37,228 bases of DNA from a virus. The position numbers were made by a program, and so were the translations under genes. The DNA lies in IMG/VR virus record IMGVR_UViG_3300011115_000269, positions 1-37,228 of that record; one strand, 5' to 3'. Below are positions 6,474 to 35,338 of the stretch, one piece after another; position 1 is the stretch's first letter; every line of letters starts with the position of its first letter. The notes under the pieces were generated by a model. That model was not told the DNA's origin, ran no database searches, and saw only the letters and a program-made list of their open reading frames with translations.

Positions 6474-6935
6474 TTACTTTACCATTCGACACCAAGAAAT
6501 AAATAAGTCGTTCGGTAGGTCTTTCTTCATCATATTCAGTGTTTTATGCACAATCTGAATGTTCCAAACATGATAACCTTCTCGACTGTTAATACGGTCT
6601 ACAGACGCATCTAATCCAAACTCCAACGGAACCCCTGTAAACGCACACTTCTTCAGTTGCTTTATATACTGTGAGTAAATGTCTTCAATCGTTATAGTGA
6701 CTTCAATGTTGCGTTTCTTTGCTCCATTTTTTAAACGACTAAATACTTTACCGGGTACATCTTTATAGCCAGCCCAAGCAGGATTATCTTTTCCTTTTTT
6801 AGGTTCACGGTTTCTATTATTGTTAGCTGTTCGACATGAAGGACAAACAGACTCATTAGCCACTGCTTTTTCAAATGAGTATTTATTCGTATAGCTCAAT
6901 TCTTTTGAGCAGCAGCTACAGAGTCTGTTGTACAT
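6474..6935 (-). CDS. HNH endonuclease, homing-type
   Basis: A 153-aa protein. The N-terminus has a Cys pair set (CSCC and CPSCR) that probably binds zinc. The C-terminal half has the phage HNH pattern CAFTGVP, DASVDRINSREGYHVWNIQIVHK and a final NMMKKDL helix. It starts one base after the stop of the ribonucleotide reductase gene and is the last gene before the terminator. Reductase genes are frequent homing targets, so it is probably a free-standing mobile nuclease and not a phage function. Confidence 0.85.
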   Translation of the reverse strand: MYNRLCSCCSKELSYTNKYSFEKAVANESVCPSCRTANNNRNREPKKGKDNPAWAGYKDVPGKVFSRLKNGAKKRNIEVTITIEDIYSQYIKQLKKCAFTGVPLEFGLDASVDRINSREGYHVWNIQIVHKTLNMMKKDLPNDLFISWCRMVK

Positions 6936-13320: not shown

Positions 13321-13530
13321 CTACTGAATTGTACCGCCAAACTGCTCAAACACATCCATACCGTCTAATGTTCCGCTTTCGATAGCTTCATAAGCATCAG
13401 CTAATAACTCCAGCGTGTCATCAATCGTTACAGAAGTCCCTACTGAGTAAGTGTTATCTTCAAACAAAGTGATAACAACTTCTCCAACCTTTGTTAATTC
13501 TTTTCCGTCCATTAGGTTACTCACTTCCAT
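13321..13530 (-). CDS. Small acidic phage protein, unknown
   Basis: A 69-aa acidic protein with a beta-rich first half (GEVVITLFEDNTYSVGTSV) and a helical second half. The family was not recognised. ATG 13530 lies inside the last codons of the HNH gene upstream. ATG 13512 would give a 63-aa product (MDGKELTKV) and may be the original start if the HNH gene was inserted. Neither has a strong ribosome-binding site. Confidence 0.6.
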   Translation of the reverse strand: MEVSNLMDGKELTKVGEVVITLFEDNTYSVGTSVTIDDTLELLADAYEAIESGTLDGMDVFEQFGGTIQ

Positions 13531-13901
13531 TTTTTTAGATAATTCAATGCTGCTTCTACAGTTGATATACTATCCTGCAGTAAACCTAATGCTCGATTAC
13601 AGTTATGACAAAGTAAATCACGAACTTGACCAGTTTCATGGTCATGGTCAACCACCAAAGTTTCTGTGTGTCCGTTGTTTCCTATCACAAATCCGTCTGA
13701 ATAGCATATCATACATTTATGATTTTGCAAGGTCTTTTTCTCTTCGTATTGTGTTTCGGTAATACCATAATTTCGCTTGTAGTAGGAGTTCTTTCCTCGA
13801 CATTTCGATGAGCAGTACTTCTGTGACGGAGCTTCAGGAGTATATTCGACAGCACAGGTCGGACAACTTTTATTCCTAAAATATTCGTTAGGATATTTCA
13901 A
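13521..13901 (-). CDS. HNH / endonuclease-VII-type nuclease, downstream of polymerase
   Basis: A 126-aa protein. An N-terminal zinc knuckle (CPTCAVEYTPEAPSQKYCS, then SKC) is followed by CMIC and the endonuclease VII core LVVDHDHETGQVRDLLCHNC, then NRALGLLQD. This is the His-Asn-His and Cys-pair arrangement of the T4 endonuclease VII fold, widely used by phage homing nucleases. It overlaps the polymerase stop as ATGA. Together with the gene at 15516-15821 it brackets the polymerase gene. A homing role is inferred. Confidence 0.85.
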   Translation of the reverse strand: MKYPNEYFRNKSCPTCAVEYTPEAPSQKYCSSKCRGKNSYYKRNYGITETQYEEKKTLQNHKCMICYSDGFVIGNNGHTETLVVDHDHETGQVRDLLCHNCNRALGLLQDSISTVEAALNYLKKWK

Positions 13902-15550
13902 TGACTTTCACTCCAGTTATTACCAATATGGTACTCAGCGTCCATCGGACACCGTGTTTTCAAAACCACCCCCGCAGTCCTTGCCGCTTCGACACAGAGT
14001 TTTCCAACACGTTCAGCGTCGGCTTCCGCAACTTCAATCTGTATTTCATCGTGGACCCATGCAACAAGTCGATGAGATATTTTGCACCTGTTGAGCATCT
14101 TAGTTGTTTCGACAATCCACTGCTTAGATACGATTGCTCCAGCACCTTGTAGCAGGGTGTTGACCGCTGAATGTGCGGAACGAATGTTAAGTCTCCTGCC
14201 GTCAAGACCCGGAATTGACCCTTTTGCAGACAGCCTTTCAACCTTCTCACGAAGTTTCTTGAGTTTTGGCATTGCTTTGAGATACCGATTAATAACGGCT
14301 TGTCCTTCTTGCGGTGAACAACCAAGAATCTGACCAATTTTTGCGCCGCCCGCCCCGTAAAGAAATGCGAATCCAAAACGCTTTGCTTCGCCCCTTGTGG
14401 AAAGACCTGCCGCTTCCCTGTTTTTCTCATGGATGTCCCCTGATAATAAAGTATTAGTGTAATCGTCGTCCTGCATATAATGAGCTAAACAACGCAGTTC
14501 TAACTGAGCTAAGTCTACCCCGACTAGCTTGTTTCCTTTGTCAACAATCCACAACGCACGACATTCTTTGCCGTACACTGCGTCCATGTTAGGAACTTGT
14601 GCCATGTTAGGACTCATGTGTGTTGCTCTTCCGCTAATGGCTCCATTAGTGATAACACGACCGTGTACCCTTCCATCTTCTTTAACCGCTTCTAGCCACG
14701 ATTCTACCTGTGCTATCCGCTTCTGAAGCATTAGATACTCGGCGATGGCTTTCGCTTCGGGGAAGTCGAGACCTTCGAGTGTGGTTTCATCGACGATGAC
14801 GCTACCTTTTTCGGTGTGCTTCGTGGGCTTCCAGCCTTTTTCGATGAGCCTTTCGGCAATTTGCTTACGACTTCCGGGGTTGAAGGGTTCAACGATGTCC
14901 CGAAGAGGCTTGCCTGATGTCTTGTGGACTCTACCAGAAGTGACTTTGGCAGGAAATATGACCTGCATTTCAGTTTGAATAGTATCCAGCTTAGTTTTAA
15001 GTTCAGCCAAAAGCTGTAAAGCACCGACTTCATCAAGTTTAAATCCTGCTCTTTCTTGCTTCGTGATGATGGCTTGTACTTCGTGTTCGAGTTTGACACT
15101 TTCTTCCGAGAATTCATTTGTTTTTAACTCCTGTGTTAAATGTTGATACAACTTTGCTAAAACTTCTACATCGTTTACACAATATTCTATCATCTGCTCA
15201 AGAGTATGTGTTTTTAAATCAAAGTCGTTGAACTCAGTCTTCGGATATCCGAGTCTTTCTCCCCACGCTGCGAGACTGTGTCCGTTTTCTATCGACGGAT
15301 TTAGTAGTCTTGATATTACTAAGGTGTCCTTTACCTGTGACATCCGAATTTTCGTATTCCATAGCTTGTTCAACAGAGGAAAGTCGAACGCTATCCCTGA
15401 GTGAGCTACCAAAATATCGTCCTTTATATAGTCCCAAAATCCGCTTGGAGTTTTCCATACTTTTATCTCGTTTGTTTCGATATGTTTCGTCACACAACAC
15501 CATATCTTGTCGTGACTAAGTGTTGTTTCTATGTCCAGTGCTATTGTCAT
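13898..15550 (-). CDS. Family A DNA polymerase with 3'-5' exonuclease
   Basis: A 550-aa replicative polymerase, shorter than T7 gp5 (about 704 aa). The proofreading domain begins at once (ALDIETT, Asp6/Glu8; HSGIAFDFPLLN at about 49-60; YCVNDVEVL). The polymerase domain has motif A VGVDLAQLELR (Asp346), motif B RGEAKRFGFAFLYGAG (Arg386, Lys390, Phe394) and motif C VHDEIQIEV (His500-Asp501-Glu502). Phe394 is at the place of E. coli Pol I Phe762, a residue class reported mostly in lytic phages. The first 35 bases lie inside the upstream HNH gene and the stop overlaps the downstream HNH gene. Confidence 0.95.
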   Translation of the reverse strand: MTIALDIETTLSHDKIWCCVTKHIETNEIKVWKTPSGFWDYIKDDILVAHSGIAFDFPLLNKLWNTKIRMSQVKDTLVISRLLNPSIENGHSLAAWGERLGYPKTEFNDFDLKTHTLEQMIEYCVNDVEVLAKLYQHLTQELKTNEFSEESVKLEHEVQAIITKQERAGFKLDEVGALQLLAELKTKLDTIQTEMQVIFPAKVTSGRVHKTSGKPLRDIVEPFNPGSRKQIAERLIEKGWKPTKHTEKGSVIVDETTLEGLDFPEAKAIAEYLMLQKRIAQVESWLEAVKEDGRVHGRVITNGAISGRATHMSPNMAQVPNMDAVYGKECRALWIVDKGNKLVGVDLAQLELRCLAHYMQDDDYTNTLLSGDIHEKNREAAGLSTRGEAKRFGFAFLYGAGGAKIGQILGCSPQEGQAVINRYLKAMPKLKKLREKVERLSAKGSIPGLDGRRLNIRSAHSAVNTLLQGAGAIVSKQWIVETTKMLNRCKISHRLVAWVHDEIQIEVAEADAERVGKLCVEAARTAGVVLKTRCPMDAEYHIGNNWSESH

Positions 15551-15821
15551 TGATATACTCGATTGCCTTTTGTAATACTGCTATATTATCATTAAAAAAC
15601 CCAAGACCTGCATTACATTTATTACACAACAAACCACGATATTTTCCTGTTGTATGACAGTGGTCTACATGAAGTCGTTTGTGTGGCTGTTTGTCTTCGT
15701 GTTCTCCGCACAAGTAACAACTATACGCTTGTTTAATACGCTCTTGTTCATAAACTTCTGCACTAATACCCAAGTTACTGTTGGCTGACCATCTGTTGTA
15801 GTTGATGTTTTCATTTTTCAC
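15516..15821 (-). CDS. HNH / endonuclease-VII-type nuclease, upstream of polymerase
   Basis: A 101-aa protein. CYLCGEHED, then LHVDHCHTTGKYRGLLCNKC and NAGLGFFND form a complete endonuclease VII-type core. It starts at GTG 15821, overlapping the stop of the upstream small gene, and its last 11 codons overlap the polymerase start. The core is closely similar to those of 34919-35338 and 13521-13901, so these look like members of one mobile family within the same genome. Confidence 0.85.
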   Translation of the reverse strand: MKNENINYNRWSANSNLGISAEVYEQERIKQAYSCYLCGEHEDKQPHKRLHVDHCHTTGKYRGLLCNKCNAGLGFFNDNIAVLQKAIEYINDNSTGHRNNT

Positions 15822-16077
15822 TAGCCTTTCTTAGTATTGCTCTAGCAACTTCAATTAAAGTATCTTGATAACAGTCCGAATATTTGCAAGTCCACTCCTC
15901 TAAAATATCTTCATCTGTCAGCGTTAGTTCTTTTACTAGATGGGCTTTCAACGCCTCGATTTCGGCTTGTTTCTGGCGTAGAATATTTATTGTTAAAGAT
16001 ATTGCGTAATTTGAAGGCGAACCATCAAAAATCTTAACCATTGCTTCCAATTCATCAGCTAGTTCTAGTGCGTTCAT
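15811..16077 (-). CDS. Small phage protein ending in RKASEK
   Basis: An 88-aa helical protein (MNALELADELEAMVKIFDG, then NILRQKQAEIEALKAHL coiled-coil stretch). This type of MNALELADELE protein is frequent in phage early stacks and has no known function. Its C-terminus ARAILRKASEK is a diverged copy of the ARAILRKAQEK end shared by upstream small genes. It is joined to the preceding gene by ATGA. Confidence 0.75.
   Translation of the reverse strand: MNALELADELEAMVKIFDGSPSNYAISLTINILRQKQAEIEALKAHLVKELTLTDEDILEEWTCKYSDCYQDTLIEVARAILRKASEK
15824..15848 (-). repeat. Gene-junction repeat, diverged copy
   Basis: On the plus strand GCCTTTCTTAGTATTGCTC, then TAGCAA repeats 16669-16693 exactly but lacks the TTTCTCTTGT part that carries the start region. 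It encodes ARAILRKA of the gene ending at 15811. It seems to be the copy in which the HNH gene replaced the original downstream gene. Confidence 0.7.
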
Positions 16078-16364
16078 TTCAATGCCTGCGCTGATTTAAG
16101 TTCGCCTGTTCCGCCATCAAAAGTCAGTTTTAAATCCCAACCATTTCTGCCATTATTTTGATACACGCCACCACCTAAACCAATGTTATAAAACCTAACA
16201 ACGTCATGGTTTGGCTCAGGCTTGATGCGAAATGTATTTGTATCAGCCCATAACATCCACGAATCATCAGTTTTTACCCATTTTTCCCATGTAGGATGCC
16301 AATATTCAATTTCAGCACCATCAGCCCATGCTTTAATTAGTTCTGCGTGTTTATGTGGTTTCAT
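16074..16364 (-). CDS. Small phage protein (HAELIKAWADGAEIE family)
   Basis: A 96-aa protein. The start KPHKHAELIKAWADGAEIEY, followed by WVKTDDSWMLWAD and TFRIKP, matches a small phage family I recall from many siphoviruses and podoviruses, of unknown function. ATG 16364 lies in the junction repeat and overlaps the upstream TGA. It ends by ATGA overlap with the next gene. Confidence 0.78.
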   Translation of the reverse strand: MKPHKHAELIKAWADGAEIEYWHPTWEKWVKTDDSWMLWADTNTFRIKPEPNHDVVRFYNIGLGGGVYQNNGRNGWDLKLTFDGGTGELKSAQALK

Positions 16365-16386
16365 TTCTCTTGTGCCTTTCTTAGTA
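16361..16386 (-). repeat. Gene-junction repeat
   Basis: The minus-strand unit AGAAAGGCACAAGAGAAATG plus A encodes RKAQEK-stop of the 40-aa gene and supplies AAGG, AAGAG and the ATG of the 96-aa gene. It is identical in sequence to the copies at 16480, 16656 and 16817. Confidence 0.85.
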
Positions 16387-16483
16387 AATCCAAACCAAAG
16401 TGATATAAGCCGTTCCAAAAACACACTCCTATAAAAACGGCTATAAAGTAATGTTCTCTTACAAAACCATCTAAGTGATTCAT
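16361..16483 (-). CDS. Small membrane protein, 40 aa, ending in RKAQEK
   Basis: A short gene fixed by its junctions. ATG 16483 overlaps the upstream stop (ATGA) and its own TGA overlaps the ATG at 16364. The peptide has one membrane segment (HYFIAVFIGVCFWNGLYHFG) and ends LDLLRKAQEK. The function is unknown. Confidence 0.7.
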   Translation of the reverse strand: MNHLDGFVREHYFIAVFIGVCFWNGLYHFGLDLLRKAQEK

Positions 16484-16502
16484 TTCTCTTGTGCCTTTCT
16501 TA
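16480..16502 (-). repeat. Gene-junction repeat
   Basis: A copy of the RKAQEK/start unit between the 59-aa and 40-aa genes. Identical bases run from the stop/start overlap through AAGAAAGG. Confidence 0.85.
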
Positions 16503-16659
16503 ATTCATCAACCTGCAACAATGTTATTTCTTGTAAATCAAGTTCATATAGTGGTTTCATGTCAAATCCTTTTTCAATCAAGCAAAGCATTTCATGTTTG
16601 CTTTCAGCATAAATCAAAGAACCATCGTGTCGTTCTCCATACCAGATAATGCGTTTCAT
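16480..16659 (-). CDS. Small phage protein, 59 aa, ending in RKAQEK
   Basis: It starts at ATG 16659 inside a junction repeat and stops inside the next one. The peptide (MKRIIWYGERHDGSLIYAES, helical middle, VDELRKAQEK) is soluble. The family is not known to me. It is supported by ATGA overlaps on both sides. Confidence 0.72.
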   Translation of the reverse strand: MKRIIWYGERHDGSLIYAESKHEMLCLIEKGFDMKPLYELDLQEITLLQVDELRKAQEK

Positions 16660-16693
16660 TTCTCTTGTGCCTTTCTTAGTATTGCTCTAGCAA
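16656..16693 (-). repeat. Gene-junction repeat, longest copy
   Basis: This copy carries both the RKAQEK/start unit and an upstream extension encoding ARAIL that is shared exactly with 15824-15848. About 38 bases in total are shared piecewise with the other copies. Confidence 0.85.
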
Positions 16694-16820
16694 AACTTTC
16701 AAAATTAACTGAAGCTACAGTTCCGTCTGTGTCTAGTTCGTAATAATTTCCACTAGCCCAATCGTGCTGTGTAAGAAAGGCTATTGTCATCCACCGCCAA
16801 ACATAAAGAGTTTCACTCAT
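16656..16820 (-). CDS. Small phage protein, 54 aa, ending in ARAILRKAQEK
   Basis: It starts at ATG 16820 and stops at 16656, both in junction repeats with ATGA overlaps. The sequence begins MSETLYVWRWMTIAFLTQHD and has YYELDTDGTVASVNFESFAR near the end, as in other small phage early proteins. The function is unknown. Confidence 0.72.
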   Translation of the reverse strand: MSETLYVWRWMTIAFLTQHDWASGNYYELDTDGTVASVNFESFARAILRKAQEK

Positions 16821-16839
16821 TTCTCTTGTGCCTTTCTTA
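16817..16839 (-). repeat. Gene-junction repeat
   Basis: A copy of the unit between the 85-aa and 54-aa genes. The identical stretch runs from the ATGA overlap through AAGAAAGG. Confidence 0.85.
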
Positions 16840-17074
16840 CAAAGTCTATTGCGTCCCAGAAACCATCTTCATACTCTGCTGACCTAGTTCCTGTCATTGT
16901 AATATCTTCAGCCCATACTACCATATTCTCTAGATGTCTAAGCTGTCTACGCTGACTCTCGATTACATCTTGAGCTTGCATCAGAATAACATGAGCTGTA
17001 CCCCATGGCAACTCGGAAGTCTCGTCTAAATATTCTTCAATCTCTCTTAATACTTTGTCAGTAGCTAGTCTCAT
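16817..17074 (-). CDS. Small phage protein, 85 aa, ending in VRKAQEK
   Basis: A soluble, largely helical, acidic protein (LREIEEYLDETSELPWGTAH, QAQDVIESQRRQLRHLEN) ending DGFWDAIDFVRKAQEK. It is the most upstream member of the run of genes that share this C-terminus. It starts three bases after the stop of the membrane protein gene. The function is unknown. Confidence 0.72.
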   Translation of the reverse strand: MRLATDKVLREIEEYLDETSELPWGTAHVILMQAQDVIESQRRQLRHLENMVVWAEDITMTGTRSAEYEDGFWDAIDFVRKAQEK

Positions 17075-17077
17075 TGT

Positions 17078-17317
17078 TTATATCCATTGTGATATCGCAT
17101 AATAAACATAAGCAACTAAACCGATTGCATATAACACAGTTGCCACAAACTCCACCAACACCAGCGGAGCATCGTCTTGAACATAGCCAGCAGCGGTCCA
17201 TAAACCACTACCAACAAACCCAAATAGAATGTTCAATGGATAGACATTAAAGCTAGTCAACGCAATCCCGATGAGACATAAGGTAGTCCCATACCATTTA
17301 AGATTAGAAACCTGCAC
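17078..17317 (-). CDS. Small membrane protein with YPLNILFGF motif
   Basis: A 79-aa protein with three hydrophobic segments (about 8-24, 28-45, 53-75). The FNVYPLNILFGFVGSGLW core resembles small phage membrane proteins of the DUF6552 type, though I am not sure of the family name. I chose GTG 17317 because GGAGG lies 9 bases upstream and the start sits at the end of the preceding gene. Upstream ATG/TTG codons lack usable spacing. Confidence 0.65.
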   Translation of the reverse strand: MQVSNLKWYGTTLCLIGIALTSFNVYPLNILFGFVGSGLWTAAGYVQDDAPLVLVEFVATVLYAIGLVAYVYYAISQWI

Positions 17318-17894: not shown

Positions 17895-19477
17895 AATGTA
17901 TCCTTAATTTCCATCATTCGACCAGTGCTAGGATTGTAAAGCAAATCACTTGCACCACCAGTATAGCCACTAAATCTATTTTTCAATACTCTAACATGAG
18001 TTGTGTTTCTTTCAATAGGGTCTAACGCTTGTCCGTTACGCTCAAGACCAATAACGATGTCAGATAGCTGAGCAATCGAACCAGAGCCACGCAACTGAGC
18101 CAGCGATGTAGAAGCACCTTCCTCATGTCCTTTGCTTTCCGGACGCTTCAGGTGAGATACGCATATAAGACTAATCCCTGTTTCCTGCACCAGCATCCGT
18201 AAACGAGTCATAATGGAATCTAGTGCTTTTCGCTCATCTCCAACATCCCCGCCAGACACAATGATAGAGATATGGTCAAGCACAACGAAACCGCAGCCCA
18301 AACCTTTAGCCATATATCGGACTCTGTTAACAATGTTATCAAGACTACTGGAACCAAAATGGTCAAAGAGATAGAGGCGATTAGTCCCCAAAGTATTATC
18401 AAACGCATCTTTTAACTCCGTATCGGAAACTTCTACATCAGGTAAATGAATTGGCTTATTGATAGCCAGTGACATAAGGCTTCGTGCAGTCTTGCGTACA
18501 CCTTCCTCTAAGAACATCATGCCGATGTTGTCATCGGTGTTCTTTAGGATATGCCACACAATCTCACGCAAGAATTGTGACTTCCCCAATCCAGAGCCAG
18601 CAGTAACCATCACTAACTCACCCTTACGGATTCCGTATGTCAGTTTGTTCAAACCATCATAAGGGTAGTTTACTTCAGCTTTTTCCATTGGCTTAGATAC
18701 AACATCCCAAAGCGTAGAGCCTTCGATAATGCCGTCAGGAACATACTTCTCACTAGCCCACCAGTCAGCGATAAACTCTTTGTTGCGGTCATGCTTCAGA
18801 TAGTCGCACGCATCTTTGTAGCCTTGACGCATTTTCATCATCTTCGCTTTAGCACCGAACAGTTCCGCTACTGCCACTGTTGCCTTTTGACCAGCTTCGT
18901 CATTGTCAAAGCATATATGGATATTCTCGAACGAGTCAATGTATTCATATTGAGCTTTGCAGTCCTTTAAAGCGGCACTAGCTCCGTTGCGGATAGAGAT
19001 AGCTGGATACTTACTACCGGTCATCTGATAGACCGCTAGAGCGTCTAATTCGCCCTCACAGATTGTAAGATATTTACCGCCTGCAGGAAATAGGTGTTGT
19101 CCGAACAGCGATGCACTAGCAAAATCTCCAGCAATACTGAATTGTTTATTTGCAACATCCCGAGTTTTAATTGCCGTAAGCGTTCCATCGTTATCGTAGA
19201 ACGGGTAGAAGTGTTTTCCATTAGCTTGCCTTACTCCGTATTTTAAGCAAGTAGCAGAGTTAATAAGGCGGTCACTAATAGCACTAGTAATAGAGGTATC
19301 ATAGAAGTTTAAATCCTTGTTCATAGGTTTCTTTTCAATTTGTTTTGTTACTACTCCGCCTGTCGTTGTTGTCAGACATTTGAAGCAATGAGTGTGTCCA
19401 TCGTCATAGACTGCTAAAGCGTTGCTACTGCCACAGTCAGGACATGGAGCATGATGTAAAAACTTACTGTCTGTCAT
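17891..19477 (-). CDS. Bifunctional primase-helicase (T7 gp4-like)
   Basis: A 528-aa protein. An N-terminal zinc-binding domain has Cys12, Cys15, Cys31 and Cys34 (CPDC...CFKC). A TOPRIM primase core follows (ICEGELDALAV at 139-149, CFDNDEAG at 189-196). The RecA-like DnaB-type helicase has Walker A AGSGLGKS at 293-300, a FLEEG Glu motif, GFVVLDHIS as Walker B near 395-405, a VSH motif and LRGSGSIAQLSD near the C-terminus. It primes and unwinds at the fork with the polymerase. ATG 19477 overlaps the upstream stop (ATGA). ATG 19489 would add four residues. Confidence 0.93.
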   Translation of the reverse strand: MTDSKFLHHAPCPDCGSSNALAVYDDGHTHCFKCLTTTTGGVVTKQIEKKPMNKDLNFYDTSITSAISDRLINSATCLKYGVRQANGKHFYPFYDNDGTLTAIKTRDVANKQFSIAGDFASASLFGQHLFPAGGKYLTICEGELDALAVYQMTGSKYPAISIRNGASAALKDCKAQYEYIDSFENIHICFDNDEAGQKATVAVAELFGAKAKMMKMRQGYKDACDYLKHDRNKEFIADWWASEKYVPDGIIEGSTLWDVVSKPMEKAEVNYPYDGLNKLTYGIRKGELVMVTAGSGLGKSQFLREIVWHILKNTDDNIGMMFLEEGVRKTARSLMSLAINKPIHLPDVEVSDTELKDAFDNTLGTNRLYLFDHFGSSSLDNIVNRVRYMAKGLGCGFVVLDHISIIVSGGDVGDERKALDSIMTRLRMLVQETGISLICVSHLKRPESKGHEEGASTSLAQLRGSGSIAQLSDIVIGLERNGQALDPIERNTTHVRVLKNRFSGYTGGASDLLYNPSTGRMMEIKDTL

Positions 19478-19665
19478 ATAAATATCCATAATTCATCAAC
19501 CAGTTCTGAGATAAACACCGTCCATAATACAAATAACAGCACCCAGAATATGAGGTCAGTATCAATCTGCCTTCTCCATAAGCCACGAAGGACTAGCCAA
19601 GTTACCCACCCAGATGCAATTAAGATAGTAGAGTGCATAAAGATGATGATAAGTGTTACTAGCAT
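19474..19665 (-). CDS. Small membrane protein, 63 aa, two helices
   Basis: Two strongly hydrophobic segments (about 3-28 and 38-55) are separated by a basic loop (RGLWRRQIDTD). It ends DELWIFI. The ATG at 19665 is supplied by the junction repeat at 19663-19689. The function is unknown. It is coupled to the helicase gene. Confidence 0.7.
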   Translation of the reverse strand: MLVTLIIIFMHSTILIASGWVTWLVLRGLWRRQIDTDLIFWVLLFVLWTVFISELVDELWIFI

Positions 19666-19880
19666 TTCTCTTGTGCCTTTCTTAGTATTTCTATTTCATC
19701 TTCCAATGACTTAATATAAGCATTAGCTTTTTCTATTTCAGGTTTGTTCTTTTCAATAATGTCTTTTACTGGATGGGTATAGAGTGGAATCCAATCGTAA
19801 TCACCGCTAGGATGTCGTTCCAACATATAGTCCCCATTAATTTCATCTACAAGCATCCACGCTACTGGTTTATTGTTCAT
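19659..19880 (-). CDS. Phage protein of MNNKPVAWM...IPLYTHP type
   Basis: A 73-aa protein. PVAWMLVDEINGD, then WIPLYTHPVKDIIE is a pattern seen in very many phage small proteins of unknown function, followed by a coiled coil (EIEKANAYIKSLEDEIEILR). It ends RKAQEKC: the repeat's TGA has become TGC TAG, so one residue is added. ATG 19880 overlaps the upstream stop (ATGA), with GGAG upstream. Confidence 0.78.
   Translation of the reverse strand: MNNKPVAWMLVDEINGDYMLERHPSGDYDWIPLYTHPVKDIIEKNKPEIEKANAYIKSLEDEIEILRKAQEKC
19663..19689 (-). repeat. Gene-junction repeat, distant copy
   Basis: This copy lies 2.8 kb from the others and keeps ATACTAAGAAAGGCACAAGA and GAAATG. It joins the 73-aa gene to the 63-aa membrane protein gene. 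The base after ATG is C instead of A, so stop and start overlap differently. Confidence 0.85.
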
Positions 19881-20062
19881 TGACTCCACCATTGGTTTCT
19901 AGTTAATCGTTTGCATTGTTTAGCCACATCTGGCGGTAATACCTGTTTGTCAGTCGTGCAAGCATAGACATCACTACGCAAAGATAGCTCTACCGCTACG
20001 CTAGCGAAGTTATAAACCCCGATAGCTAGCAGACACGCTAGCGACACCTTAAAGAAGGGCAT
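19877..20062 (-). CDS. Small protein with N-terminal membrane segment, 61 aa
   Basis: MPFFKVSLACLLAIGVYNFA is a signal anchor or signal peptide. The rest is polar with two Cys (ACTTDKQVLPPDVAKQCKRL) that could form a disulfide outside the cytoplasm. It starts at ATG 20062 with GGAG six bases upstream. The function is unknown. Confidence 0.65.
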   Translation of the reverse strand: MPFFKVSLACLLAIGVYNFASVAVELSLRSDVYACTTDKQVLPPDVAKQCKRLTRNQWWSQ

Positions 20063-20312
20063 TGTCGCTCCATAGCAGTGATTTTCCGCCAGCACCAGCC
20101 ATGATTACTACTAACTCACCCTTTCTGATTCCGTGTGTCCGCTTGAACCCAACGCTGGTTGGGACAAGCGCCTCAGCGACCTTCTGAGCCACCCTATCAG
20201 CAATCATAGCGTCTAGGTCGTTGATTACACTCGCATAGCCGTACTGCTCGATTAAATCGACCATATCCGACAATGTAAAGTGATAAAACGCTTCCTTTTG
20301 TTGCTCTAGCAT
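20049..20312 (-). CDS. Small phage protein fused to a helicase P-loop fragment
   Basis: An 87-aa protein. Residues 1-50 are a soluble helical phage-type domain (LSDMVDLIEQYGYASVINDL). Residues 55-80 (GFKRTHGIRKGELVVIMAG, then AGGKSLL) closely resemble the Walker A region of the primase-helicase (LTYGIRKGELVMVTAGSGLG, then KSQFL) but lack one P-loop residue. The rest of the helicase is absent, so it cannot be an ATPase by itself. It looks like a partial duplication joined to another gene. The start has GGAGG six bases before ATG 20312. Confidence 0.7.
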   Translation of the reverse strand: MLEQQKEAFYHFTLSDMVDLIEQYGYASVINDLDAMIADRVAQKVAEALVPTSVGFKRTHGIRKGELVVIMAGAGGKSLLWSDNALL

Positions 20313-20372
20313 AAAAGCCTCCATTAAAATTAGACAATACACCATATAGGTCTAAATGTCTGTCGTTAAAAC

Positions 20373-20400
20373 ACAACATAAGTGTTGTTTTTTTACAACA
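20373..20400. promoter_or_regulatory. Triple-arm inverted repeat before the 87-aa gene
   Basis: The 193-base gap 20313-20505 holds ACAACA (20373-20378), TGTTGT (20383-20388) and ACAACA (20395-20400). The middle arm can pair with either flank. Arms two and three form a full member of the TGTTGT-N6-ACAACA family (20383-20400). Read leftward, the alternative hairpin is followed by GTTTT. It could be an operator or a weak switchable terminator. I see no strong promoter in the gap. Confidence 0.5.
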
Positions 20401-21088: not shown

Positions 21089-21234
21089 TATGAGCAATCC
21101 ACAATTTTACCGCCATTACAGTAAAAACAAACCATCTGCCTACCATCAGGCAAAGTAATAATTTGACTAGGACAAGCCCAAACATTAGAAGTGTTGTATA
21201 AAAACAACAGTGTGATTAGTAGTAGTTTTTTCAT
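21082..21234 (-). CDS. Small exported Cys-rich protein or lipoprotein, 50 aa
   Basis: MKKLLLITLLFLYNTSNVWA is a signal peptide. It is followed directly by Cys21 (VWAC), which could be a lipobox or simply a signal peptidase I site before a disulfide protein with four Cys (CPSQIITLPDGRQMVC, CNGG, VDCSYL). Similar CPSQ...PDG small secreted proteins occur in other phages and have no known role. A cell-surface role such as superinfection exclusion would be speculation. It is coupled upstream by ATGA. Confidence 0.7.
   Translation of the reverse strand: MKKLLLITLLFLYNTSNVWACPSQIITLPDGRQMVCFYCNGGKIVDCSYL
21192..21209. promoter_or_regulatory. TGTTGT-N6-ACAACA palindrome (inside the 50-aa gene)
   Basis: A perfect 6-bp arm palindrome with spacer ATAAAA. 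This is the only copy inside a coding sequence (codons of LLFLYN in the signal peptide). Read rightward it is identical over 20 bases to the copy at 22858. Confidence 0.6.
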
Positions 21235-28322: not shown

Positions 28323-28580
28323 ATGACACCAGAATTACAAGCATATTACGACAATCGTTTTAGTACGATGGCTACGCAGGGCTGGCAGGATTTAGTAGAC
28401 GATGCTAAGGAAATCTTTAAAGCGGTCAACAATCTTGCACCTGTAGCTAACGAGCAGGACCTGTTCTATCGAAAAGGACAACTTGACATCCTTCAGTGGT
28501 TGTTAAGCCTTAAAGATAGTTCTGCTGCAGCTTATGAGCAACTTATCAACGACTCTGCGGGAGCAGCTCAGGATGAGTAG
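28323..28580 (+). CDS. Small phage structural-region protein, 85 aa
   Basis: A helical protein (MTPELQAYYDNRFSTMATQG, GQLDILQWLLSLKDSSAAAY) of a kind often found just before scaffold genes. Function unknown. The leader CTCCCATTTAAAGGATAAAG before ATG 28323 closely resembles the leader of the terminase small subunit gene (23090-23107). It overlaps the HNH start. Confidence 0.7.
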   Translation: MTPELQAYYDNRFSTMATQGWQDLVDDAKEIFKAVNNLAPVANEQDLFYRKGQLDILQWLLSLKDSSAAAYEQLINDSAGAAQDE

Positions 28581-29052
28581 CAAACAATGCTCATGTTGTA
28601 AGGTAGAAAAAGATGTTTCTTTGTTTAGTAAGAACATTTCTCGCAAAGATGGTTTACATCCGTCTTGTAAAGAATGTAAAAACAAAGGAAATCTCAAGTA
28701 CCACCAAAACAACCGAGAAAAAGAAGTACAGTATTCTCGAAAATACTATCAGCAAATCGGGAGATTTGAAACTGATAAGCTGAGAGAAAGAGAAGCAAAA
28801 CGAAGAGCTAGTAAATTAAAAGCAACCCCTTCGTGGCTTTCTGAATCACAGTTATTAGCAATAAAGTGTAAATATTCTCTAGCGACAATGTTTACAAAAT
28901 GTAGTGAAGTGCCTTACGCTGTAGACCATATTGTTCCTTTAAGAGGTAAAACAGTATGTGGTCTTCATGTACCTTGGAACTTACAAGTTATCACAGTTGA
29001 AGAGAACTTGAAAAAAAGTAACAAGCTACAAGGAGATTTATCTTATGCCTAG
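28573..29052 (+). CDS. HNH endonuclease, homing-type
   Basis: A 159-aa protein. An N-terminal zinc module (CSCCKVEKDVSLFSKN, CKECKNKGN) and basic linker precede an HNH core (YAVDHIVPLRGKTVCGLHVP, WNLQVITVEENLKKSNK). ATG 28573 overlaps the stop of the 85-aa gene, and its tail contains the ribosome-binding site and ATG of the following gene. An insertion at a gene border is likely. Confidence 0.85.
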   Translation: MSSKQCSCCKVEKDVSLFSKNISRKDGLHPSCKECKNKGNLKYHQNNREKEVQYSRKYYQQIGRFETDKLREREAKRRASKLKATPSWLSESQLLAIKCKYSLATMFTKCSEVPYAVDHIVPLRGKTVCGLHVPWNLQVITVEENLKKSNKLQGDLSYA

Positions 29053-34265: not shown

Positions 34266-34922
34266 ATGGCTGCTTATAACTTTTTACAACTGACGAACTC
34301 AGTTTTACGTAGATTGCGTGAAGCTGAGGTTACGTCCGTCAACGATAACGACTATGCTAAGCTCATAGCTACGTATATCAACGATTCTAAGCGTCAAGTA
34401 GAAGATGCCTATAACTGGAATTCTTTATCTGACACATTGTCTGCAACAACCACTGCTAATATTTTTAGCTATGTTCTGACCGGCTCAGGACAGCGTTTCC
34501 GTCTAATTGACATTATCAACGACAGCAGCAACATGATAATGCAAAACCGTACTACACGGTGGATGGACCAAGCCTTTTTAGTAAACGACCCTGCTAAAGG
34601 TCCTCCGATTTACTTCAACTTTAACGGAACAGATACTAACGGAGACACATTAGTCGACCTATATCCTATTCCTGACGGTGCTTATAATCTTCGCTTCAAC
34701 ATTATTAAACCACAAGTTGAGTTAGTAGCTGATGCTGATGTGCTTTATGTACCACATGAGCCTGTCATAATGGGTGCTTATGCTCGTGCCGTGGCTGAGC
34801 GTGGTGAAGATTCTGGAGTGACAAGCAACGAAGCCTATGCGTTGTATTTGACAAGCCTTGCTGACGCTATTGCGTTGGAAAGTGGTCGATATATTGAAGA
34901 ACAGGAATGGTTGGCAATTTGA
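34266..34922 (+). CDS. Head-tail adaptor / tail tubular protein A-like
   Basis: A 218-aa protein. The helical start (YNFLQLTNSVLRRLREAEVT, YINDSKRQVEDAYNWNSL) is followed by a beta-rich middle (RFRLIDIINDSSNMIMQNRT, DLYPIPDGAYNLRFNI) and a final helix. This is the layout of T7 gp11 / P22 gp4-type adaptors joining portal and nozzle. It is just upstream of the nozzle-like gene, with an HNH gene wedged between them. Confidence 0.78.
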   Translation: MAAYNFLQLTNSVLRRLREAEVTSVNDNDYAKLIATYINDSKRQVEDAYNWNSLSDTLSATTTANIFSYVLTGSGQRFRLIDIINDSSNMIMQNRTTRWMDQAFLVNDPAKGPPIYFNFNGTDTNGDTLVDLYPIPDGAYNLRFNIIKPQVELVADADVLYVPHEPVIMGAYARAVAERGEDSGVTSNEAYALYLTSLADAIALESGRYIEEQEWLAI

Positions 34923-35338
34923 GCAAACAATGTTCAAAATGTAAAGAAGTAAAATCTTTAAATTCTTTTCACAAAGATGAAAGAAATAAAGATAAGAAGC
35001 GGTCTAACTGCATAGCGTGTGACCGTGAAGCATCAAAAGTATGGAAAGAAAAGAATAAAAAGCATATTGCCGAATACAATAGTCACTATAAACGGGAATA
35101 TACTTACGGATTATCGAAACAAGCGTATTTAGAATTATTAGAAGCACAAGATAATAAATGTGCTATTTGCAACATAGACCAGTCGAAATTATCGAGAAAA
35201 TTAGTTGTAGACCATTGTCATACTTCTAATAAAGTTAGAGGATTACTCTGTTCTCACTGTAATGTTGGAATTGGAATGTTAAAAGAAAATGAAGACAATT
35301 TGATGGCTGCGATTCAATATCTGAAAGATAGCGTATGA
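34919..35338 (+). CDS. HNH / endonuclease-VII-type nuclease in the tail module
   Basis: A 139-aa protein. A zinc module (CSKCKEVKSLNSFHKD, CIACDREASKVW) precedes CAICNID and the endonuclease VII core LVVDHCHTSNKVRGLLCSHC. TTG 34919 overlaps the adaptor stop (TTGA) with AGGA about 12 bases before. ATG 34907 is possible but has no room for a ribosome-binding site. It ends in ATGA overlap with the nozzle gene. Probably a mobile homing nuclease. Confidence 0.83.
   Translation: MSKQCSKCKEVKSLNSFHKDERNKDKKRSNCIACDREASKVWKEKNKKHIAEYNSHYKREYTYGLSKQAYLELLEAQDNKCAICNIDQSKLSRKLVVDHCHTSNKVRGLLCSHCNVGIGMLKENEDNLMAAIQYLKDSV

Follow-up and report, generated by a model that had tools for sequence, protein, structure and literature searches.

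A 21-base unit that encodes the end of one small gene together with the start of the next was found, identical letter for letter, at well over 100 distinct gene borders of unrelated viruses, mostly those of lake bacteria. At exactly this unit, genes have been gained, lost and exchanged, and it therefore looks like a connector for the trading of genes. The unit is probably a dispersed gene-boundary linker, that is, a portable stop/start junction which acts as a short-homology recombination linker and is kept uniform by exchange.

The unit and its gene array in the window

The window, i.e., the whole stretch of 37,228 nucleotides that was analyzed (IMG/VR record IMGVR_UViG_3300011115_000269), is a phage record whose ends are direct repeats of 219 bp; its genes include those for a family A polymerase, a T7-like helicase-primase, a 5'-3' exonuclease and endonuclease VII. 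The 20-mer AGAAAGGCACAAGAGAAATG occurred in five exact copies, all on the minus strand and every one at a small-gene border (Table 1), versus 0.01 copies expected by chance from dinucleotide shuffles, and a scan of the window allowing up to three mismatches gave nothing beyond these five. The unit encodes a C-terminal tail, (FARAIL)RKAQEK, and its TGA stop, and it also contains an SD-like AAAGG and the ATG at which the next gene starts, overlapping the stop; its core has 21 bases, AGAAAGGCACAAGAGAAATGA, and its long form 39. A perfect 12-bp palindrome, TTGCTAGAGCAA, lies inside the long form (window 16677-16694, and many loci), and may be either a chance product of the codons or a binding site.

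All the copies named in a preliminary description of this DNA, four clustered, one distant and one diverged, were located at gene borders of the window. The RKAQEK ending and the TGA/ATG overlap attributed there to each copy held for the four clustered ones, which end their genes with RKAQEK-TGA and whose stop shares bases with the following ATG (ATGA overlap). They did not hold for the distant copy, where a C after the ATG places the stop, a TAG, one codon later; the diverged copy departs in its ending, RKASEK, a form of the unit also found at gene starts in other phages. The encoded proteins had been regarded as otherwise unrelated, which is true of most of them, but the 54-aa and 88-aa genes share a longer ARAIL tail.

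Table 1. Unit copies and associated genes in the window.
Feature	Positions	Strand	Remarks
Exact unit	16361-16381	-	20-mer at 16362-16381; 40-aa gene end (RKAQEK-TGA) and 96-aa gene start (ATGA overlap)
Exact unit	16480-16500	-	20-mer at 16481-16500; 59-aa gene end and 40-aa gene start
Exact unit, long form	16656-16694	-	20-mer at 16657-16676; TTTGCTAGAGCAATACTA+AGAAAGGCACAAGAGAAATGA (FARAILRKAQEK-stop); 54-aa gene end and 59-aa gene start
Exact unit	16817-16837	-	20-mer at 16818-16837; 85-aa gene end and 54-aa gene start
Distant exact 20-mer, then C	19662-19682	-	20-mer at 19663-19682; gene end RKAQEKC-TAG; overlapping ATG of 63-aa gene
Diverged unit, long form	15811-15849	-	AGAAAGGCTAGTGAAAAATGA at 15811-15831; ARAILRKASEK-TGA; start of endonuclease VII gene
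85-aa cassette gene	16817-17074	-	Without family match; own start without unit
54-aa cassette gene	16656-16820	-	Without family match
59-aa cassette gene	16480-16659	-	Without family match
40-aa cassette gene	16361-16483	-	Hydrophobic segment and RKAQEK tail
96-aa gene	16074-16364	-	phrog_13152-like, unknown function; starts at unit, own end without unit
88-aa gene	15811-16077	-	Blocks LTDEDI...ARAILRKASEK
Recombination endonuclease VII family gene	15516-15821	-	Behind diverged unit
77-aa gene	19659-19892	-	Blocks KPVAW...PLYTHP...ILRKAQEK
Variable slot	15553-17080	-	Polymerase gene to gene ending 17078; occupied here by unit array, in nearest relatives by unrelated genes

Searches of the window's small genes against Pfam and PHROGs gave almost no matches. 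In the relatives L224, L225 and L227, which are ~80-86% identical to the window in the DNA of the helicase region, collinearity with it extends to ~17081 and resumes at the polymerase (15552); between these points they carry other genes and no unit array. The outer start of the array (85-aa gene, 17074) has no unit. The outer borders of the array lack the unit, so that not every exchange has units on both sides, and the array entered or arose as one block.

Several other features of the window were noted. Several free-standing genes, identified as endonuclease VII/HNH genes or similar to them, lie at 6474-6935, 13521-13901, 15516-15821, 28534-29052 and 34907-35338, those at 13521-13901 and 15516-15821 being the ones compared with families, and homing endonucleases are a possible identity for them. 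A dispersed repeat, AAGTGTTGTATAAAAACAACAGT, with inverted-repeat ends, was found at 21189, 22424, 22604, 22855 and 22896 (also at 20375 and 34218) and perhaps represents phage promoters or operators. Positions 20089-20145, inside the small ORF at 20049-20345, repeat 57 nt of the helicase gene near its ATP-binding region (18591-18647, 75% alike), in the manner of a gene remnant.

Carriers of the unit and gene exchange at its borders

The exact 20-mer was present in at least 120 IMG/VR stretches and, among the matches listed, was followed by an A at 182 of 187 sites, giving the TGA/ATG overlap with a preceding frame that encodes RKAQEK. The 43 long carrier contigs held 1-13 copies each, nearly always on one strand only, and none of them matched the tyrosine integrase family (PF00589). 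Clustering of the terminases recognized in 21 carriers gave seven groups at 30% identity and ten groups at a threshold of 50%; four of these carriers, spread over three groups, had no detectable similarity to the others. Among the phages of the GenBank collection, no named isolate had the unit, which was confined to a single environmental genome, MW202753. Among GTDB genomes, the 20-mer was found in four MAG contigs only, labelled as four different groups; these were taken to be misbinned phage, and no host was therefore drawn from them. Literature searches for the unit sequence and for such a phenomenon in freshwater phages returned no description in the collection covered.

At the exact sites, 153 different upstream flanks and 169 different downstream ones were combined in 195 pairings. 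Forty upstream flanks were seen more than once, and 30 of these had at least two different downstream flanks, in line with the earlier expectation that in other phages the unit would stay fixed while its neighbors vary. Homology breaks between contigs clustered at +20 to +24 of the unit, right after the ATGA, in very many alignments. Three contig pairs differed by cassettes of one or two genes with units at the cassette borders, which supports the earlier proposal of a cassette boundary at which genes are swapped, added or lost. Gene A, the unit and gene Y follow each other in L071, whereas L117 has gene A, a diverged unit, two genes, the unit and gene Y, the DNA being elsewhere collinear at >93% identity; two genes between units differ in L134 and L097, and one gene in L057 and L027. 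The contrary outcomes, a fixed gene order with diverged junctions and a common ancestry of whole genes, were not seen.

In the first border test, the loci had mostly been found through the unit, which inflated the break counts; the enrichment obtained (odds ratio ~18) was discounted, and the test was redone with matched ascertainment, using only borders in loci that hold another exact unit. The ratio of shuffled to collinear pairs was then 30:4 at units, as against 95:145 at the remaining small-gene borders; at an identity of at least 92%, the corresponding ratios were 18:4 and 16:108. Upstream-flank families were shuffled in 12 of 13 cases at units versus 43 of 131 elsewhere (p = 4e-5). A helicase-anchored sample gave an excess of breaks at units at ≥92% identity (odds ratio 3.9, p = 0.01), which was not significant at 75 and 85% identity (p = 0.11). 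Simple flank counts in gene-anchored samples gave no excess at units, the up-side count being uninformative in these sets because they are anchored on the downstream gene. Among 179 gene-fetched loci, the unit was the most recurrent gene-start context (20 downstream by 19 upstream settings, the next having 7), with one anchor gene in each of two fetches picked from behind a unit. As judged from these sequence comparisons, genes have been exchanged at the unit, and unit borders are likely preferred over other borders for exchange. Most gene-size indels in these phages had a repeat of merely 5-7 bases at the ATGA, indicating that the unit is not needed for exchange, and some swaps involved a unit-bearing and a unit-less genome (L150 versus L148).

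With a gene-boundary linker, small genes that end or start in the unit could be combined freely, without loss of frame, stop, spacing or stop/start overlap. Copies of the unit in one genome or in co-infecting phages would supply 20-40 bases of identity, between which phage recombination, probably by an exonuclease and strand annealing as in T7- or Red-like systems, could exchange, insert or delete genes; the same exchange would hold the copies uniform across unrelated phages. Candidate recombination genes, as predicted from sequence, are the 5'-3' exonuclease and endonuclease VII of the window and a YqaJ exonuclease in 6 of the 43 carriers. We infer the action of such enzymes, a direct crossover within the unit, homogenization of its copies, a shared pool of hosts and coupled translation across the junction.

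Conservation of the unit and competing explanations

The unit could instead be only a translation-initiation or coupling signal, kept for ribosomes or a phage factor, that rides along with shuffling borders; such a role has been suggested for the start-associated sequences of mycobacteriophages. It sits exactly at start codons, its conservation ends abruptly after the ATGA and fades gradually upstream over ~24 bases, and its region is weakly structured. In addition, at 23 of 185 sites it is not preceded by any in-frame gene of 30 aa or longer, and at several of these a stop codon directly adjoins the unit, indicating that it can be a leader only. This explanation nevertheless appears unlikely. 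The SD of the unit is average or weak, weaker than 69% of the other starts in relatives, and the possibility that the unit is common merely as a strong RBS was ruled out by SD energy. Most genes in the same phages lack the unit, its borders were more shuffled than other borders under matched ascertainment, and the FARAIL part, although too far upstream for an RBS, is identical as DNA: in 110 of 116 genes, FARAIL was written as TTTGCTAGAGCAATACTA, 18 bases before the unit that were in no search query. No stable hairpin and no terminator-like site were found at any unit, nor was a promoter in a scan that covered sigma-70-like sites; in the region around the unit, sigma-70 promoters and terminators did not exceed chance. 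Selection on the peptide tail (FARAIL)RKAQEK, for binding, stability or localization, with DNA alike from a recent spread of genes, is quite improbable as the whole explanation. Single-base codon changes in KAQEK were biased to synonymous ones (49 synonymous versus 41 non-synonymous, against a random expectation of 7:38), the other peptide blocks EPVAW, PLYTHP and LTDEEI are conserved too, and a peptide constraint on the tail exists as well. The identity of the DNA, however, is far above what the peptide requires, since a codon-free search for RKAQEK-stop still returned identical DNA at 176 of 198 distinct sites; moreover, the tails occur on dissimilar proteins, and some units stand in leader-only positions.

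Duplication of whole genes, which would leave common tails on diverged paralogues, is very improbable. In favor of it, roughly one half of the genes with the unit at their end contain PVAW, YTHP or LTDEEI blocks (LTDEEI in 84 and PVAW in 74 of 181 upstream genes) and form one mosaic family, but the remaining upstream genes are without those blocks, the downstream genes show no relationship to one another (mean column identity of 4%), and the edge after the ATGA is abrupt; the gradual decay into neighboring gene bodies that duplication requires was not seen. An assembly artefact, in which short repeats joined unrelated contigs, comes to mind because nearly all the sequences are metagenomic, and is the least credible of the explanations. 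Twenty-four junction types recurred in at least two loci, a number that may include re-assemblies of the same sample; the independently deposited record MW202753 contains the unit as well, and reading frames are kept across the joints. The k-mers usual in metagenome assembly exceed the 21-39 bases of the unit.

Known boundary sequences and possible further linkers

The proposal that boundary sequences are recombination sites is an old one, and by analogy the unit appears to work like such a sequence. For lambdoid phages, it has been proposed that mosaic modules recombine homologously at short conserved DNA sequences lying on gene borders (Susskind and Botstein 1978; Clark et al. 2001, HK620; as cited in PMC3029335). 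The unit is likewise short conserved DNA exactly at gene borders, where homology breaks and different genes are joined, with an excess that is weaker or absent in gene-anchored samples. Unlike the lambdoid sequences, it encodes a C-terminus plus the next start and spans stop and start, and it is one sequence common to phages without a tyrosine integrase and with terminases below 30% identity. Lambdoid boundary sequences belong to temperate coliphage relatives, whereas the phage of the window is not lambdoid, having a T7-like polymerase and helicase-primase, and the 43 long carriers gave no match to the tyrosine integrase family. What sets the unit apart is that it is coding, bridges stop and start, and is common to unrelated phages.

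Other systems share single traits with the unit. In mycobacteriophage Island3 (gp67/gp68), the last 18 residues of a small gene match the end of the upstream gene, which was ascribed to recombination between ~50-bp repeats (PMC3029335); this was one event in one phage pair, as against ~195 distinct junctions of the unit. The start-associated sequences (SAS) of cluster K mycobacteriophages are, in the passages describing them, a repeated asymmetric 13-bp motif just upstream of many starts, sometimes with the upstream stop, and of unknown function (PMC3203893). The unit is similarly repeated directly upstream of start codons, but its sequence differs from the GGGATAGGAGCCC-type motif, the SAS are described there as confined to one phage cluster, and the same passages mention neither a shared C-terminus nor a role in gene exchange. 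The PeSLs of T4-type phages (Arbiol 2010; Comeau 2014; as cited in PMC4503421) are repeated mobile gene-border cassettes to which modular shuffling among lytic phages is attributed; as characterized there, they combine a promoter and a stem-loop, whereas the unit is coding, and neither a stem-loop nor a sigma-70-like promoter was found at it. Integron gene cassettes rely on a tyrosine integrase acting on attC, a family to which the carriers' own genes gave no match. It has been disputed since the 1970s whether conserved boundary sequences or random joining plus selection give rise to phage mosaicism, and boundary sequences were not found at most phage mosaic joints (PMC3029335). One boundary sequence at ~195 distinct joints of deeply separated phages makes the question countable and testable. 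The unit also suggests how such phages acquire and lose small accessory genes, and provides a sequence marker for finding them.

At the DNA level, too, the EPVAW, PLYTHP and LTDEEI blocks hardly vary. Forty-three genes have the layout EPVAW-V1-LYTHP-LTDEEI-V2-ILRKAQEK, and among them V1 and V2 assorted independently (L150 has V1 as in L120 and V2 as in L241; L068 has V1 as in L128 and V2 as in L066), suggesting that the unit is one among several linkers. It is conceivable, and we offer it tentatively, that unrelated lytic phages with shared hosts use nucleotide-conserved linkers, i.e., the RKAQEK unit and the three blocks, as standard connectors, and that whole small genes and gene parts are assembled combinatorially across phage families while use in recombination keeps the connectors constant. 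Small proteins built from the fixed DNA blocks (EPVAW, PLYTHP, LTDEEI and FARAILRKAQEK), with two variable segments swapped independently between phages, were noted in the six loci just named (L150, L120, L241, L068, L066 and L128) and in the 77-aa and 88-aa genes of the window.

Few of the 93 distinct downstream proteins had a Pfam match. The matches included YqaJ recombinase, DNA polymerase A, radical SAM, transketolase, amino acid:DNA transferase and a few DUFs, indicating that the genes behind the unit are not only orphans. The cassette proteins were also considered as defence genes, a candidate rejected with only two incidental matches, to a polymerase-like model and an exonuclease model. 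Two further gene-start contexts, TAAGGAGTAAGTGATG and AAGCGAGTGAGAAATG (KASEK form), recurred in the gene-fetched loci and may be additional linkers.
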